The notes below the pieces were generated by a model, which was not told the DNA's origin, ran no database searches, and was given only the letters and a program-made list of their open reading frames with translations. DNA of 64,000 bases from Methanothermococcus thermolithotrophicus DSM 2095. GTDB lineage: Archaea; AGJL01; Methanococci; Methanococcales; Methanococcaceae. A program made the translations under genes and the position numbers. The stretch is from contig NZ_OX296583.1 in NCBI RefSeq assembly GCF_946463545.1, positions 372,001 to 436,000 of the forward strand. The letters run 5' to 3'. This document shows, piece after piece, positions 8,120-57,557 of the stretch; positions within the stretch are counted from its first letter, which is position 1; each line of letters opens with the position of its first letter.

Positions 8120-8265
8120 AATACCCCTTTATCCTTAGCTAATTAATAACTATCTGAAAATATTTAACAAATGTTTTAAGACTATCTTTGTATATAAAAT
8201 TATTAAGACACATTTTTATAGTTTTTATATTAAATATCATCATTACATATTAAAAATTAAGTGAC

Positions 8266-8311
8266 TGAACGAAACCGATAGGTTTCGTAGCTCACTCACT
8301 TCGTTCGTGAT
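8266..8311 (+). repeat. Palindromic element, type A, abutting cfbB start
   Basis: Perfect 8-bp stem ACGAAACC / GGTTTCGT (8269-8276 with 8281-8288) followed by TAGCTC and a TTCG-rich tail. The same plan (variable stem, then TAGCTC, then TTCG/CTTCGCT tail) recurs at 36166, 47694 and in reverse at 51917. The tail's CGTGA lies 4 bases before the cfbB ATG and probably acts as its ribosome binding site. Confidence 0.75.
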
Positions 8312-8314
8312 AGT

Positions 8315-9658
8315 ATGAAAAGAGTAGTTATTGCAGGAAGTTCATCAATGGTGGGAAAAACCACTATATCAACAGGAATAATGAAGGCACTTTCAAAAAA
8401 ATATAAAGTGCAGCCGTATAAAATAGGTCCAGATTATATAGATCCAACATACCATACAATGGCCACAGGGAATAAATCAAGAAATTTAGATTCATTTTTT
8501 ATGGGAGCTCAGCAAATAAGATCTATTTTTAAAAGACATTCAAAAGAAAAAGACATAAGTATAATTGAGGGTGTTAGGGGACTTTATGAAGGTATCTCCC
8601 CGTATGATGATGTGGGAAGTACTGCATCTGTTGCAAAAGCCCTAAACGCCCCAGTAATACTAATAATAGATGCAAGGAGCTTAACAAGAAGTGCAGCCGC
8701 CATAATAAAAGGATTTAAGATTTTTGATAAGGATGTAAACATCAAAGGTGTTATATTCAATAAAATCAGAGGAGAACATCATTTAAAAAAGTTAAAGGAT
8801 GCTGTAAATTACTATGTGCCCGATATAGAGATAGTAGGTGCAATACCAAGGGATGAAAAGCTAACAGTATCTCAGAGGCATTTAGGTTTGATACCAACAC
8901 CTGAAAACAGATCAGAAATTAGTAAAAATATAGAAGTTTGGAGCGATATAGTTGAAGAAAATTTAGATTTAGATAAAATCGTAGAAATAAGCGATGAAAG
9001 CTTTGATTACGACGTGGATTATAAAAATAAAGACCAAACACTATGGGAAGTAAACAAAAACAAATGTAAAATTGGCGTGGCATACGATGAAGCGTTTAAT
9101 TTTTACTATTGGGATAATTTCGATGCACTATGTGAAAATGGGGCAAAAATAGAATTTTTTAGCCCACTAAATGATGAAGAAATCCCAAACTGTGATATTC
9201 TGTACCTTGGAGGAGGCTATCCTGAAATATTCCCACAGAAATTAAGTAATAACAAATCAATGTTGGAATCCATAAGAAACTTTGATGGAAAAATCTATGG
9301 TGAATGTGGAGGTTTAATGTACCTTACAAACTCAATAAACGGCGTTGAAATGTTAAAGCTGATAAACTGCGATGCCATTATGACCAAAAATGTTCAAGGT
9401 TTGAGCTATGTTAAGGGAACTTTTACAAGGGATTGTCCAATTGGTAAAAAAGGATATGAATTCAGAGCTCATGAATTCCATTATTCAAAGCTAATAAACA
9501 TTAATGAAAAAGATTTTGCATATAAAATAAATAGGGGAAAGGGCATAATTAACGGTATGGATGGAATTATCACCAAAGATGGAAATATTCTTGGAGGTTA
9601 TGCTCATCAGCACTGTGTAGCCAACCCATACTTCGCTTCATCCATGGTAAAAATTTAA
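8315..9658 (+). CDS. cfbB: Ni-sirohydrochlorin / cobyrinate a,c-diamide synthase
   Basis: ATP- and glutamine-dependent amidase that converts the a and c acetate side chains of a tetrapyrrole to amides. In methanogens the same protein (CfbB, formerly CbiA) works in coenzyme F430 synthesis and can act on cobyrinic acid. The P-loop [10 protein letters not shown] lies at residues 8-17 and KIGPDYIDP follows. The C-terminal class I glutaminase domain shows [10 protein letters not shown] and the nucleophile cysteine in [10 protein letters not shown]. The 447-residue length is normal. The leader is odd: a palindromic repeat ends just before the ATG. dacZ begins 13 bases after the stop. Confidence 0.92.
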
Positions 9659-36122: not shown

Positions 36123-36165
36123 AAATTAAAGTTATTTAAAATAGAAATAATTTTAGTTATTTTAA

Positions 36166-36215
36166 ACAAAAACCCTTCGGGTTTTTGTAGCTCTCCGTTC
36201 GCTTCGCTCACTCCG
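36166..36215 (+). repeat. Palindromic element, type A
   Basis: Perfect 10-bp stem ACAAAAACCC / GGGTTTTTGT around TTC (36166-36175 with 36179-36188), then TAGCTCTCCGTTCGCTTCGC and an ACTCCGAT end. It lies between the convergent phosphodiesterase gene and porF. The reverse-complement copy at 51917-51975 is nearly identical in the tail but has a different stem. Confidence 0.8.
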
Positions 36216-36261
36216 ATTTAAGTTATTTGGTTTTATTTTATTTGCTAATGAAATAATTTAA

Positions 36262-45356: not shown

Positions 45357-45792
45357 TTAAGCTTTTTTTCTACATATTTATTATTTATTAAGGTTATTCG
45401 AAAAACATTAAATATTGTACGTATAAGTAACTTCAATTTAGTTTCTTTTTATTTGAAAATCTAATGATTTTTAAATCCCTGAAGACCTTCGGTTTTCGGT
45501 AGGTTATATTGTTCTTCATGTTGTAATTAGAATAGTGTGCAGTTTTAAACATAATGCCCATCTAAATTTAAAAACTTAATAAATCATTCAATACCCACCA
45601 CTATCGCAGTATAATAAAATTTTATATATTTGTATATCATACTATTTAGGAAATCGAGTAAATCTCTTTACGAACTTGTTGCTGACTCACAAAAATTTGA
45701 AGAATTTTTGTTGAGTCGAGGCAAAACCTTCGGAGTTTTGCAAACTCATATAATCACAAATTTTATATTTTATAAACATTAGAGGGTTTAAC
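45357..45792 (+). other. Histone-pyrH intergenic region with palindromes
   Basis: About 436 bases with no gene. A weak stem GAAGACC / GGTTTTC occurs near 45480. A stronger cluster lies at 45680-45745 and is listed separately. The pyrH ribosome binding site GAGGG is at its end. Confidence 0.5.
45680..45745 (+). repeat. Palindromic element, type B cluster (two hairpins)
   Basis: Stem ACAAAAATT / AATTTTTGT around TGAAG (45689-45711), flanked by GACTC and GAGTC that extend the pairing, then linker GAG and stem GCAAAAC / GTTTTGC (45721-45741) around CTTCGGA. Same design as the hairpin arrays at 51991 and in polB. Confidence 0.7.
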
Positions 45793-46473
45793 ATGAAAGT
45801 AATTTTCGCATTAGGTGGTTCAGTTTTAATGCCTAAAGAAGGAGCATCTGTGGAAAAAATCAAGGAATATACTGAAACATTCAAAAAAATAAAAGATATG
45901 GGCCATGAGATGGGAATAGTTGTAGGTGGAGGATATACTGCAAGAAACTATATTTCAGTTGCAAGAGAATTTGCAAATGAAGCCTTTTGCGATGAAATTG
46001 GAATAATGGCCACAAGAATGAACGGTATGCTGTTGATATCTGCCCTTGGAAACTACACAATTAAAAAAATTCCAGAGAACTTCAAAGAAGCGGAGCTTAT
46101 CATGAATTTAAATAAAATTGTTGTAATGGGTGGAACCCATCCTGCACACACCACAGATGCAGTTGCAGCATCCTTTGCAGAATATATAGATGCCGATTTA
46201 CTCGTCATAGCTACAAACGTTGACGGTGTTTACGACAAAGACCCAAGAAAATATGATGATGCTAAAAAGCTTACTAAAATAACCACAACAGAGCTCTTAG
46301 ACCTCACTGGTTCAGCTTCCATAAGTGCAGGCTCTTCCAGTGTTGTGGATCCTTTGGCATCTAAAATTATAGATAGGGCAAAATTAAAAACCCTGGTAGT
46401 TGAAGGAACCCCTGAAGAAATTTTAAATGCTATTTTAGGAAATCATAGTGGAACTACCATTGTTTCAGAATAA
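45793..46473 (+). CDS. pyrH: UMP kinase
   Basis: A 226-residue amino-acid-kinase-fold protein converting UMP to UDP. Motifs: FALGGSVLMP, VVGGGYTAR, NVDGVYDKDPRKY and SAGSSSVVDPLASKII. Length and motifs fit the archaeal PyrH. GAGGG precedes the ATG. The next small gene starts 25 bases after the stop. Confidence 0.95.
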   Translation: MKVIFALGGSVLMPKEGASVEKIKEYTETFKKIKDMGHEMGIVVGGGYTARNYISVAREFANEAFCDEIGIMATRMNGMLLISALGNYTIKKIPENFKEAELIMNLNKIVVMGGTHPAHTTDAVAASFAEYIDADLLVIATNVDGVYDKDPRKYDDAKKLTKITTTELLDLTGSASISAGSSSVVDPLASKIIDRAKLKTLVVEGTPEEILNAILGNHSGTTIVSE

Positions 46474-47591: not shown

Positions 47592-47693
47592 CCAAGTTTT
47601 GTTTTAGATTAAATTTCTTTTTTGTTAAAATTTATAGGAATATGTTTATTAATTTGTAAATTTAAATAAATTAATCTATTTATTTAAAATTAA

Positions 47694-47738
47694 ACAAATT
47701 CCTTCGGAATTTGTAGCTCTTCGCTTCGCTACGATTGA
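47694..47738 (+). repeat. Palindromic element, type A
   Basis: Perfect 9-bp stem ACAAATTCC / GGAATTTGT around TTC (47694-47714) then TAGCTCTTCGCTTCGCTACG. Located between tRNA-Met copy 2 and the 3' end of the first S-layer gene; it could assist termination from either side. Confidence 0.78.
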
Positions 47739-51813: not shown

Positions 51814-51885
51814 AAATGGATTAAAATAAATATTTATAGATTTATATTGTCGGATATAACAAACTTAAATCTACTCCTAAAATAT

Positions 51886-51975
51886 ACCTACTCAACTTCG
51901 TTGAGTAGGTATCAGATTTGGGGATCGGAGTGAGCGAAGCGAACGAAGAGCTACAAAATCCCGAAGGGATTTTGT
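51886..51975 (-). repeat. Hairpin plus reversed type A palindromic element
   Basis: First, stem ACCTACTCAAC / GTTGAGTAGGT (51886-51910), 11 bp, perfect. Then, on the minus strand, a type A unit: stem ACAAAATCCC / GGGATTTTGT (51953-51975) and tail TAGCTCTTCGTTCGCTTCGC to ACTCCGATC. Tail differs from the 36166 copy at one or two bases, while the stem differs at several paired positions. Confidence 0.8.
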
Positions 51976-51990
51976 TCAATCCAACACCTC

Positions 51991-52096
51991 TCGACAAAAA
52001 CCTTTGGTTTTTGTGAATCGACAAATTTCCTTGAAATTTGTCTCGATCAGCGAATCCCTTGGATTCGCTTCGACAGCAAATCGAGATTTGCTTCGA
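51991..52096 (+). repeat. Array of four hairpins spaced by TCGA (type B)
   Basis: Stems: ACAAAAACC / GGTTTTTGT, ACAAATTTC / GAAATTTGT, AGCGAATCC / GGATTCGCT, AGCAAATC / GATTTGCT. Each is perfect; TCGA recurs at 51991, 52018, 52043, 52070 and 52093 between units, a spacing of 23-27 bases. The same architecture occurs inside polB at 55093-55203. Confidence 0.8.
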
Positions 52097-52259
52097 TTTA
52101 TAAAGGGGTTGGAGATATATATTAAAGTTTTTTTATCTAGTAATTCCAATGTTTTTTGCTGAGCTCTACCAACACATCAAATTTATATTTAAGTTATTCA
52201 ATTTATCGAGCTCCGTAGTATTACCAATTAATTGAAAATATTTAATCCTCATTTTATAT

Positions 52260-54596: not shown

Positions 54597-54609
54597 ATTA
54601 TCACCTTTT

Positions 54610-54700
54610 ACGAGCGAAGCGAGTAAATTAGCAAATCTATGATTTGTGTATTTTACGAACGAAGTGAGTAAATCAGCAAATCCGAAGGATTTGTGCTTTT
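54610..54700 (+). repeat. Tandem 45-base repeat with hairpins
   Basis: Unit 1 starts ACGAGCGAAGCGAGTAAAT at 54610 and unit 2 ACGAACGAAGTGAGTAAAT at 54655. Each is followed by a stem: GCAAATC-TAT-GATTTGTG and AGCAAATCC-GAA-GGATTTGTG. The unit is a rearranged type A element (tail first, stem second). Located just upstream of hacB. Confidence 0.75.
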
Positions 54701-55001: not shown

Positions 55002-57557
55002 ATGGATGTCCTTATAGACCTAAACTACAGCTCAGAAGAAAAATGCCTGTATTTGTACTTAATCAATGAAATGTGCCGACCCCTACAACACATCGAAGCA
55101 AATCCGAAGGATTTGCTGTCGAAGCGAATTTCAAAAAATTCGCTGACTCACGAAACCGAAGGTTTCGTCGAGACTTACGAAAACTCGAAGAGTTTTCGTC
55201 AAGTTTTAAAAGAAAAAGATTTTAAACCGTATTTTTATGTTGATGCAGATATAAATGATATAAAAAGTTTTTTAAAAGAAAAAGAACTTTCTGATCTTGT
55301 GGAAAACATAGAAATTGTAAAAAAAACTATTTTAAAGGATATTAACGACAGTATGGATAGGATAGTTGAAAAAGAATTGTGCAAAATAATCGTAAAATAT
55401 CCAAAGGATGTTCCAAAACTTAGGGCCCTGAAGGAGATTGGGGTAATATACGAACACGACATACCATTTACAAAGCGATACCTAATTGACAGCGGCATAG
55501 TTCCAACTGCCTACTTTGATTTTAAAAATAAAAAAATAATTAATAACAATATACCAAAGTTAAAGGCAATTTCCTTTGACATGGAAGTTTATTGTGAAGG
55601 GGGAGAACCTGACCCAGAGAAGGATCCAATTTTAATGACTAGTTTTTGTTCAGATTTGAGAAAAGTTATAACATATAAATCCTTTGAACATGAATACGTC
55701 GAGCTCGTAGAGGATGAAAAGGAACTAATTAAAAAAACAATTGAAACACTTAGAAACTACGATATAATATACACATACAATGGGGATAACTTTGATTTTC
55801 CATATTTAAAGAAAAGGGCAAAATACCTTGGAATAGATGTTAATTTGGGAAAGTCCCCTTCAAATCAAGTTTGCGAAGAAAATAAACAACTTTATTATTC
55901 AATTAACAACGAGGACATAAAGATTTCAAAGGGTGGGATGCACTTAAGGAGCTACATACCAGGAAGGGTTCATATCGATCTATATCCCATCGCAAGGAAA
56001 CTTTTGAACTTAGCTAGATACAAGTTGGAGGATGTGACTTTCGAGCTCTTTGGAATAAATAAGTTGGAAGTTGGGCATTCAAATATAGCCCGCATCTGGA
56101 ATGAAAAAAATGAAACCTTGGTGGAATACTCCTTTCAAGATGCATATTATACCTATAAAATTGGAGAATATTTCTTACCTTTAGAAATAATGTTTTCAAG
56201 AATCGTAAATCAGACGTTATTTGAAATAAGCAGAATGAGCAGTAGTCAGATGGTGGAATATCTTCTGTTAAAAAACTCATTTAAAAACAATTTTATAGCA
56301 CCAAATAAACCTTCAAACAGAGAATATCTAAGAAGGATAAGAGAAAGGTATGAAGGGGGCTATGTAAAGGAACCTATAAAGGGGATTCACGACAGCATAG
56401 TTTCAATGGATTTCAAAAGCCTTTACCCGTCCATAATAATTAGCCATAACATAAGTCCAGATACCATCGATTGTAAGTGCTGCGAACATGAAGCTGAAAA
56501 AATACTTGGTCATTGGTTTTGTAAAAAAAGAATAGGTATTATTCCAAAAACATTAAAGGATTTAATTGAAAGGAGAAAGAAAATTAAAACGATTTTGAAA
56601 TCCAAGCAGGATAAAATTTTATTGGATACGGAAAATCCGAAGGTTATGGATGAGGATACAAAATCTACCGACGAGTATTATGACCTACTGAATTACGAAC
56701 AGAAATCTTTGAAGGTTTTGGCAAACTCAATCTATGGTTACTTAGCCTTTCCAAGGGCAAGATGGTACTCAAAGGAATGTGCAGAAGTCATAACATATCT
56801 TGGAAGAAACTACATTCAAAAAACCATGGATGAAGCTGAAAAATTTGGGTTTGAAGTAATATACGCAGACACCGATGGATTTTATTCAAAATTAAAAAAT
56901 AACAATACGACCAAAAATAAAGATGAATTGATAAATAAAACCTATGAATTTTTAGAAATTATAAACCAAAAACTCCCGGAAAGTATGGAATTAGAGTTTG
57001 AGGGGTACTATAAAAGAGGCATATTTATCACAAAAAAAAGGTATGCATTAATTGATGAAAGGGATAAAATAACAATTAAAGGTTTGGAATTCGTTAGAAG
57101 GGATTGGTCTAACATTGCTAAAAAAACCCAAAGAAGAGTTTTAGAAACCTTACTCAAAGAAGGAGATGTTGAAAAAGCCAAAAAGGTAATTCAGGACGTT
57201 ATAAACGATTTAAGAAATGGAAAAGTAGATAAAAAAGACTTGATAATATACACGCAGCTGACAAAGAATATAGACGAGTATAAAACCACATCACCACATG
57301 TTGAAGTTGCCAAAAAAATAATTAAAAAGAAAGGCAGGCTAAAAGTCGGAGACGTTCTAGAGTATATAATAACGAGTGGAAATAAATCAATAAGTGAAAG
57401 GGCTTTTTCACCTGAAGATGCAAAGGACTACGATATAAACTATTACATTGAAAATCAAGTTTTACCGCCTGTATTGAGAATCATGGAATCCTTAGGCATA
57501 TCAAAAGATGAACTTAAAAACTTGGATAAACAGGTGACTTTGGATAGATTCTTTTAA
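55002..57557 (+). CDS. polB: DNA polymerase family B
   Basis: An 851-residue replicative/repair polymerase without inteins. The exonuclease site begins AISFDMEVY (about 189-197) with [13 protein letters not shown]; polymerase motifs are [26 protein letters not shown] and [10 protein letters not shown] start at ATG 55002 (GGTGTTATC upstream). Odd: residues about 30-67 are encoded by a four-hairpin palindromic array (55093-55203). In the M. jannaschii enzyme, as I recall, the flanking sequences LIN and [11 protein letters not shown] are nearly adjacent, so this is an insertion. The frame is kept. Confidence 0.93.
55093..55203 (+). repeat. Palindromic array inserted in frame within polB
   Basis: Four perfect stems: AGCAAATCC / GGATTTGCT (55097-55117), AGCGAATTT / AAATTCGCT (55123-55144), ACGAAACC / GGTTTCGT (55150-55168), ACGAAAACTC / GAGTTTTCGT (55177-55199), with linkers GTCGA, GACTC and CGAGACTT. 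Loops are GAA or CAAA. About 111 bases, 37 codons, no stop. Same family as 51991-52096. Confidence 0.85.

Follow-up and report, generated by a model that had tools for sequence, protein, structure and literature searches.

The Rickettsia palindromic elements (RPE; Ogata et al. 2000, 2002) are short, palindromic and non-autonomous sequences of about 150 bp that form several families, are strongly intragenic, and are inserted in frame in unrelated protein genes by a mover that is not known (PMC10969869). REPs, some of which lie in replication and repair genes, have mismatches that suggest one structured strand, and a CGTC tag is described in the same source (PMC3733652). Perfect hairpins can also be created and maintained by template switching, with multi-base compensatory changes (PMC8794818), and polymerase template switching between inverted repeats gives homogenised arms together with inversion of the spacer (PMC8604942).

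The window analysed here is a stretch of 64,000 nucleotides, bases 372001-436000 of the 1,706,496-base single-contig genome of a member of the Methanococcales (the host, G000). This placement follows from intein-bearing PolB relatives in order-mates, an archaeal SRP RNA and a Methanocaldococcus MAG that has the element too. With a probability that we put at roughly 0.6, the hairpins scattered through it represent short non-autonomous palindromic mobile elements of the Methanococcales, with arms kept by template switching and a mover that we guess to be of the HUH/Y1 type. No description of such elements in archaea was found in the literature searched, which covers subscription journals sparsely.

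The hairpin census covered 864 kb of host stretches, about half of the genome, and the elements called type A below, Y1 transposases and reverse transcriptases (RT) were sought by whole-genome searches. A total of 236 perfect GC-containing hairpins belonging to several modular families were identified, or 27 per 100 kb, roughly tenfold the level of about 2-3 in shuffles. The figure reflects the choice of stretches, part of which were picked around matches; nine host stretches picked otherwise have 11 per 100 kb and four relatives have 6-15. The window itself has 16 perfect stems of at least 8 bp with at least three G/C in the arm, compared with 0-5 in five Markov shuffles, and nine of at least 10 bp, compared with 0-1. 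The stems therefore outnumber random expectation, the explanation that the original prediction had named as its own refutation.

That prediction, made from the window alone, described four tailed copies and several hairpin-only clusters (near 45683, 51990, 54606 and 55097), and all of these are present. The features are listed by window position.

8264-8312, plus strand: type A (covariance model R1); genome 380264-380312; ends just upstream of an ORF start at 8315
36161-36218, plus strand: type A (covariance model R1)
45683-45742, unstranded: two clustered hairpins, linked by GACTC/GAGTCGA, that lie upstream of an ORF at 45793
47689-47736, plus strand: type A (covariance model R1)
51884-51912, unstranded: hairpin C, ATACCTACTCAAC-ttc-GTTGAGTAGGTAT, first half of a C-D composite
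51923-51980, minus strand: type A between C and D, the reversed copy; the site without insert is at genome position 1495960
51981-51989, plus strand: left arm of palindrome D, CCAACACCT
51990-52096, minus strand (AGC-first orientation): B array of four hairpins (51994-52014, 52020-52042, 52049-52069 and about 52074-52091) in the loop of D
52099-52112, plus strand: right arm of palindrome D, TATAAAGGGGTTGG
54606-54698, plus strand: two tandem type-A-like units, upstream of PolB
55002-57557, plus strand: family B DNA polymerase gene (PolB), named from motifs, carrying an insert
55071-55202, plus strand: in-frame PolB insert of 44 residues, made of four B hairpins (55097-55199) and about 26 bp of flank

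Type A, which corresponds to the tailed family, has 45-60 bp and consists of two hairpins joined by AGCTC, in the order flanking ATT, GA, hairpin 1, AGCTC, hairpin 2, GATT. The conserved tail is itself a second hairpin, which had been missed, and the TTC/GAA loop attributed to all tailed copies is GATA in the one at 8269. In most copies hairpin 2 has an outer stem, TC/TC mismatches, which are tandem G.A on the opposite strand, an apical 2-bp stem and a TTC or TAC loop; in the units at 54606-54698 it reads TTTAC-GA-GC-GAA-GC-GA-GTAAA. Its apical part on the opposite strand, GC-GAA-GC, is what we take to be an unusually stable DNA mini-hairpin. Regarding the other families, B forms arrays of two or more hairpins with TCGA, GTCGA, GACTC or CGAGA linkers; C-D is a composite of ATACCTACTCAAC..GTTGAGTAGGTAT and CCAAACC..GGTTTGG; E is a double hairpin, AGTTGAATAATC..GATTATTCAACT plus CCGCAAC..GTTGCGG; and F has 33-bp units, CGAAAACC..GGTTTTCG with TAACCTACTGGATT. 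The multi-hairpin modules of the host span 45-130 bp. Some C-D composites (592342-592630, 805765 and 1004100) have some 50 bp of flanking sequence in common, with ends resembling TATAGT...GACA, and these may be parts of a larger MITE-like element. Elsewhere in the host, two copies of a 319-bp sequence, 100% identical, lie about 400 bp apart (G000:C1:852566-852884 and 852968-853286).

The region 51884-52112 is a nested stack of hairpin C, a type A copy and the four-hairpin B array within the loop of the outer palindrome D, CCAACACCT...AGGGGTTGG. Neither this nesting nor the array in frame within PolB had been noticed in the original prediction. Insertion and nesting are shown by sites found in both the empty and the filled state (^ marks the junction). 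Within the host, the C-D composite site GGAAT^CAAAACC is empty at 805765 and filled with type A at 1004100, and the site GATTTGGGGAT^CCAACACC is empty at 1495960 and filled at 423885. In a gene named from its sequence as AONS/KBL-like, the site TTTAAT^AGAAG is empty in the relative G015 and filled with 45 bp in the host; at the identical codon G032 and G029 have inserts of 51 and 57 bp with different perfect stems, and the site is empty in G028 and others. Two further pairs come from transposon sequences of relatives: the IS605 left end GATGAATT^AGGGG is empty in G029 and filled with type A in G003, and the TnpB 3' region is empty in G029 and G027 and filled in G026. Most type A pairs have an AAT/ATT core of 2-5 bp on both sides, with none in the TnpB pair. 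Element E interrupts the arms of hairpins, at GGTTT^TTGT and at GGATT^TGT, in neither case with a duplication, and the B array in the loop of D shows no clear one. As these comparisons show, type A inserts into spacers, protein genes, IS605 elements and older hairpin elements.

Two contigs filed in a 'Bacteroidales' MAG (JASGMZ010000055.1 and JASGMZ010000119.1) are misbinned, since they are 99.96% identical to the host genome. They were considered as a source of strain-level insertions and rejected, as all differences fall at contig ends; the interiors of these two same-species contigs show no strain polymorphism. One of them shows a loop inversion, also at its end, which may be an assembly artefact.

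The covariance model R1, built from 34 type A copies, gives at least 89 matches in the host genome, so the family is far larger than the four copies first described. A lack of further copies would have refuted the original prediction; they were found, and its reading of a dispersed mobile family is supported. At least 27 matches were found in G004, at least 25 in G015, at least 22 in G006, and at least 1-10 in most Methanocaldococcus-like genomes; the M. maripaludis-like group has weak ones only. Outside the Methanococcales there are none among the matches listed, save two weak ones in one genome, and a stricter E-value left the picture unchanged. A pattern scan recovered one true relative, a Methanocaldococcus MAG sharing an element, besides the two misbinned contigs. 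Six matches in unrelated organisms were discarded, as they have no hairpin in front and their number is about that estimated for chance. The contig collection scanned with PolB gave no match.

In-frame inserts were identified in PolB and about nine other genes, the AONS/KBL-like one among them. The 44 extra residues that the four B hairpins add to PolB are missing in all 13 aligned relatives, two of which have a few unrelated residues at that position; the PolB relatives of order-mates contain inteins. Comparison with the orthologues of G009, G015 and G004 revealed inserts in Hel308, porphobilinogen deaminase (PBGD), homoisocitrate/isopropylmalate dehydrogenase (HICDH), YjeF/NNRD, a methyltransferase, UPF0146 and a metallo-beta-lactamase-fold (MBL-fold) protein, where the insert has about 50 residues; the one in GH57 is less clear. 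A further B array lies within the intein of Hel308, a hairpin is present in the coiled-coil part of the host Rad50, and RACo has tandem type A copies common to the host and G004. The B arrays are poor in stops, with 22 of 42 frames open in seven arrays, compared with about 10% expected at random. The PolB insert offers a gauge of the foreign peptide load that a core enzyme tolerates. The host and G004 belong to two genera, yet their Hel308 genes, including the intein and two palindromic inserts, are more than 99% identical, and this suggests a recent transfer between them.

Regarding the mover, the elements could be REP-like units mobilised in trans by a RAYT/Y1 transposase, as in gammaproteobacteria, an explanation that we regard as possible though doubtful. 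Like REPs, they are short paired palindromes in high copy number, some of them within genes for replication and repair. Type A is present in each of the five genomes that have Y1 genes or their remnants, and it is more frequent in genomes with TnpB (14 of 17) than in those without (4 of 19), but phylogeny confounds this association, as do the copies that lie within IS605 elements. PF01797 (Y1_Tnp) is absent from the complete host genome, in a search with positive controls, and thus the genome richest in type A has no Y1 gene; intact Y1 transposases were found only in G003 and G029, and TnpA is missing from the host, which does have two convincing TnpBs. An enzyme acting in trans, as had been suggested, may still be involved, but the RAYT proposed for that role was not found. 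Nor is there a constant GTAG tag: at the foot of hairpin 1, GTAG occurs only when the hairpin ends in GT, and other copies have ATAG, GTAA or GCAG. The target differs as well, as type A follows ATT and the IS605 of relatives begins after TTAC/TCAC. A reverse transcriptase was also considered and rejected, because the only RT of the host is a DRT UG5-nitrilase-type defence protein; other type A-rich genomes have no RT. This protein of 1110 aa (G000:C1:25654-28986) is the sole PF00078 match in 37 Methanococcales-centred genomes.

The pairing of the stems bears on a second explanation, according to which the hairpins function as RNA or single-stranded DNA structures and selection for compensatory mutations keeps them paired. 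We consider it unlikely, although the covariation is strong: of the cells in the seven outer pairs of type A, 99.2% are paired, compared with 80.7% after shuffling (0/500), and a tail-anchored search blind to pairing found 37 perfect stems in about 43 true type A copies. The stems were said to vary freely; they do vary, but the set of stems in use is limited, and the seven outer pairs include two that are invariant. Among the outer-pair cells, 43 are changed on both sides, one is G-U and two are unpaired, and two of the outer pairs include A-U to U-A swaps, which have no wobble intermediate. Both arms of hairpin 2 of RACo are changed between the host and G004. Near-identical composites differ by inversion of the loop (gaa/ttc) with the arms untouched, in addition to some single-arm changes. 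When hairpins of matched orientation with equal stems, equal oriented flanks and unequal loops of the same length are compared, 72 of 112 pairs, from 14 stems, have loops that are exactly the reverse complement of each other. This figure is descriptive, since one hairpin can enter several pairs, which are therefore not independent. A simple listing of the loops found with each stem was rejected as proof of inversion because a palindrome shows both loops from either strand, and the orientation-matched test was used instead.

The original prediction had posed the right question, namely whether the stems evolve by compensatory change or are copied by a process that makes both arms. The evidence favours the latter, because 43 double changes stand against three halfway cells and exact loop inversion is frequent. 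Template switching is the likely process, since arm matching together with loop inversion is its published footprint. Compensatory selection is disfavoured because G-U intermediates are too few and because selection on pairing would leave the loops uninverted; in addition, elements occur in coding genes in both orientations, and Rfam finds only the archaeal SRP RNA and tRNAs in the window, with no family matching the hairpins. Two observations are more in line with selection. Hairpin 2 keeps its tandem G.A on one strand while the stems vary, and the mismatches of B arrays are biased to A.C when read in one orientation, equivalent to G.U on the opposite strand, a hint that selection may act to some extent on a specific strand.

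Template switching might even account for the spread itself. In that case no dedicated transposase would be needed, and host template switching or single-strand repair would copy, flip, extend and paste the hairpins, so that arrays, nesting and perfect stems would be products of one host process acting on self-folding DNA. We judge this improbable.

Alternatively, type A could have spread together with IS605, as the hairpin structure of its ends or as its omega-RNA region. Type A occupies the same place in the IS605 left end of G003 and in six G027 derivatives, adjoins TnpB 3' ends in G026 and G030, and in the host closely follows the stop codon of a TnpB gene. But the homologous IS605 of G029 and the TnpB 3' regions of G029 and G027 have no type A, and most host copies are away from any IS and have no flanking IS ends, which makes this explanation very improbable. 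An origin of type A from IS605 ends was likewise rejected, as the empty IS605 of G029 differs from the filled ones by an internal insertion. Some copies lie in the left ends of IS605 and others in the 3' region of TnpB, from which the guide RNA would be produced, so they could alter TnpA expression or omega-RNA folding.

The weakest explanation, non-mobile hairpins formed in place as transcription terminators or chance palindromes of an AT-rich genome, agrees with the intergenic position of most hairpins (205 of 236 in the 864 kb) but has a negligible chance of being right, given the excess over shuffles, the shared linkers, tails and junctions, the nesting and the coding-frame insertions, and is already refuted by the empty and filled sites.

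In the mobile-element model that we prefer, type A inserts at an AAT/ATT target, as the empty and filled sites show, usually leaving a direct repeat of 2-5 bp. Insertions in protein genes are retained when in frame, and those into linkers or loops of older palindromic elements build nested arrays. The perfect pairing would be due mainly to template switching between the short arms during replication, in which one arm is rewritten to complement the other and, judging from the footprints, the loop is often inverted. Single-arm changes do occur, which counts against this part of the model. The copying and pasting of new units would need a mover, for which a single-strand transposase of the HUH/Y1 type and of the IS200/IS605 class, since lost from the host, is tentatively put forward. 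The IS605 class is the best lead, given the TnpB association and the type A copies inside IS605 elements, but it is a weak one and confounded by phylogeny, and our confidence is lowest for the mover. Against such a mover stands the absence of Y1/RAYT from the genome. The direct repeat is inconstant, being missing in the TnpB pair, B and E.

Compared with known systems, type A elements appear from their sequences to work like RPE and REPs, although they lack the transposase and the tag of the REP/RAYT system. REP/BIME sequences are likewise short palindromes in high copy number, often paired, with some in replication and repair genes (PMC3733652); in contrast, the host has no RAYT/Y1 gene and many copies interrupt each other. 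The dispersal of GC-richer hairpins in an AT-rich genome recalls, from their descriptions, organelle double-hairpin elements and GC clusters (PMC2800124, PMC4478555, PMC2670323); the present hairpins lie in the chromosome of an archaeal cell, and for them exact empty sites and inserts in protein reading frames are documented. MITEs of IS605 are also small and non-autonomous with an enzyme in trans, and type A is carried inside IS605 derivatives of relatives, but its ends are unlike those of IS605 and IS605 copies without type A exist. Template-switch mutations between inverted repeats likewise homogenise the arms, invert the spacer and produce multi-base compensatory changes (PMC8604942, PMC8794818); there they are scattered, whereas here a large dispersed family within a single genome would undergo them and provide many natural replicates. 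With DNA-level empty sites, a visible nesting order and dozens of copies, changes in stems and loops become countable, and for this reason stem evolution by selection or by template switching can be tested, as can the question of whether hairpins spread without a transposase of their own. Strong covariation, usually taken as proof of a functional RNA, can also arise from a DNA-copying process. The likeness to RPE is close by description, as a palindromic repeat lies in frame in unrelated proteins, is missing from their orthologues and leaves frames open, as in the B arrays. The differences are the archaeal host and units that are multi-hairpin, mostly intergenic, nested, found within IS elements and subject to loop inversion. 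These elements thus appear to be an unrelated archaeal counterpart of the protein-inserting palindromes of Rickettsia.
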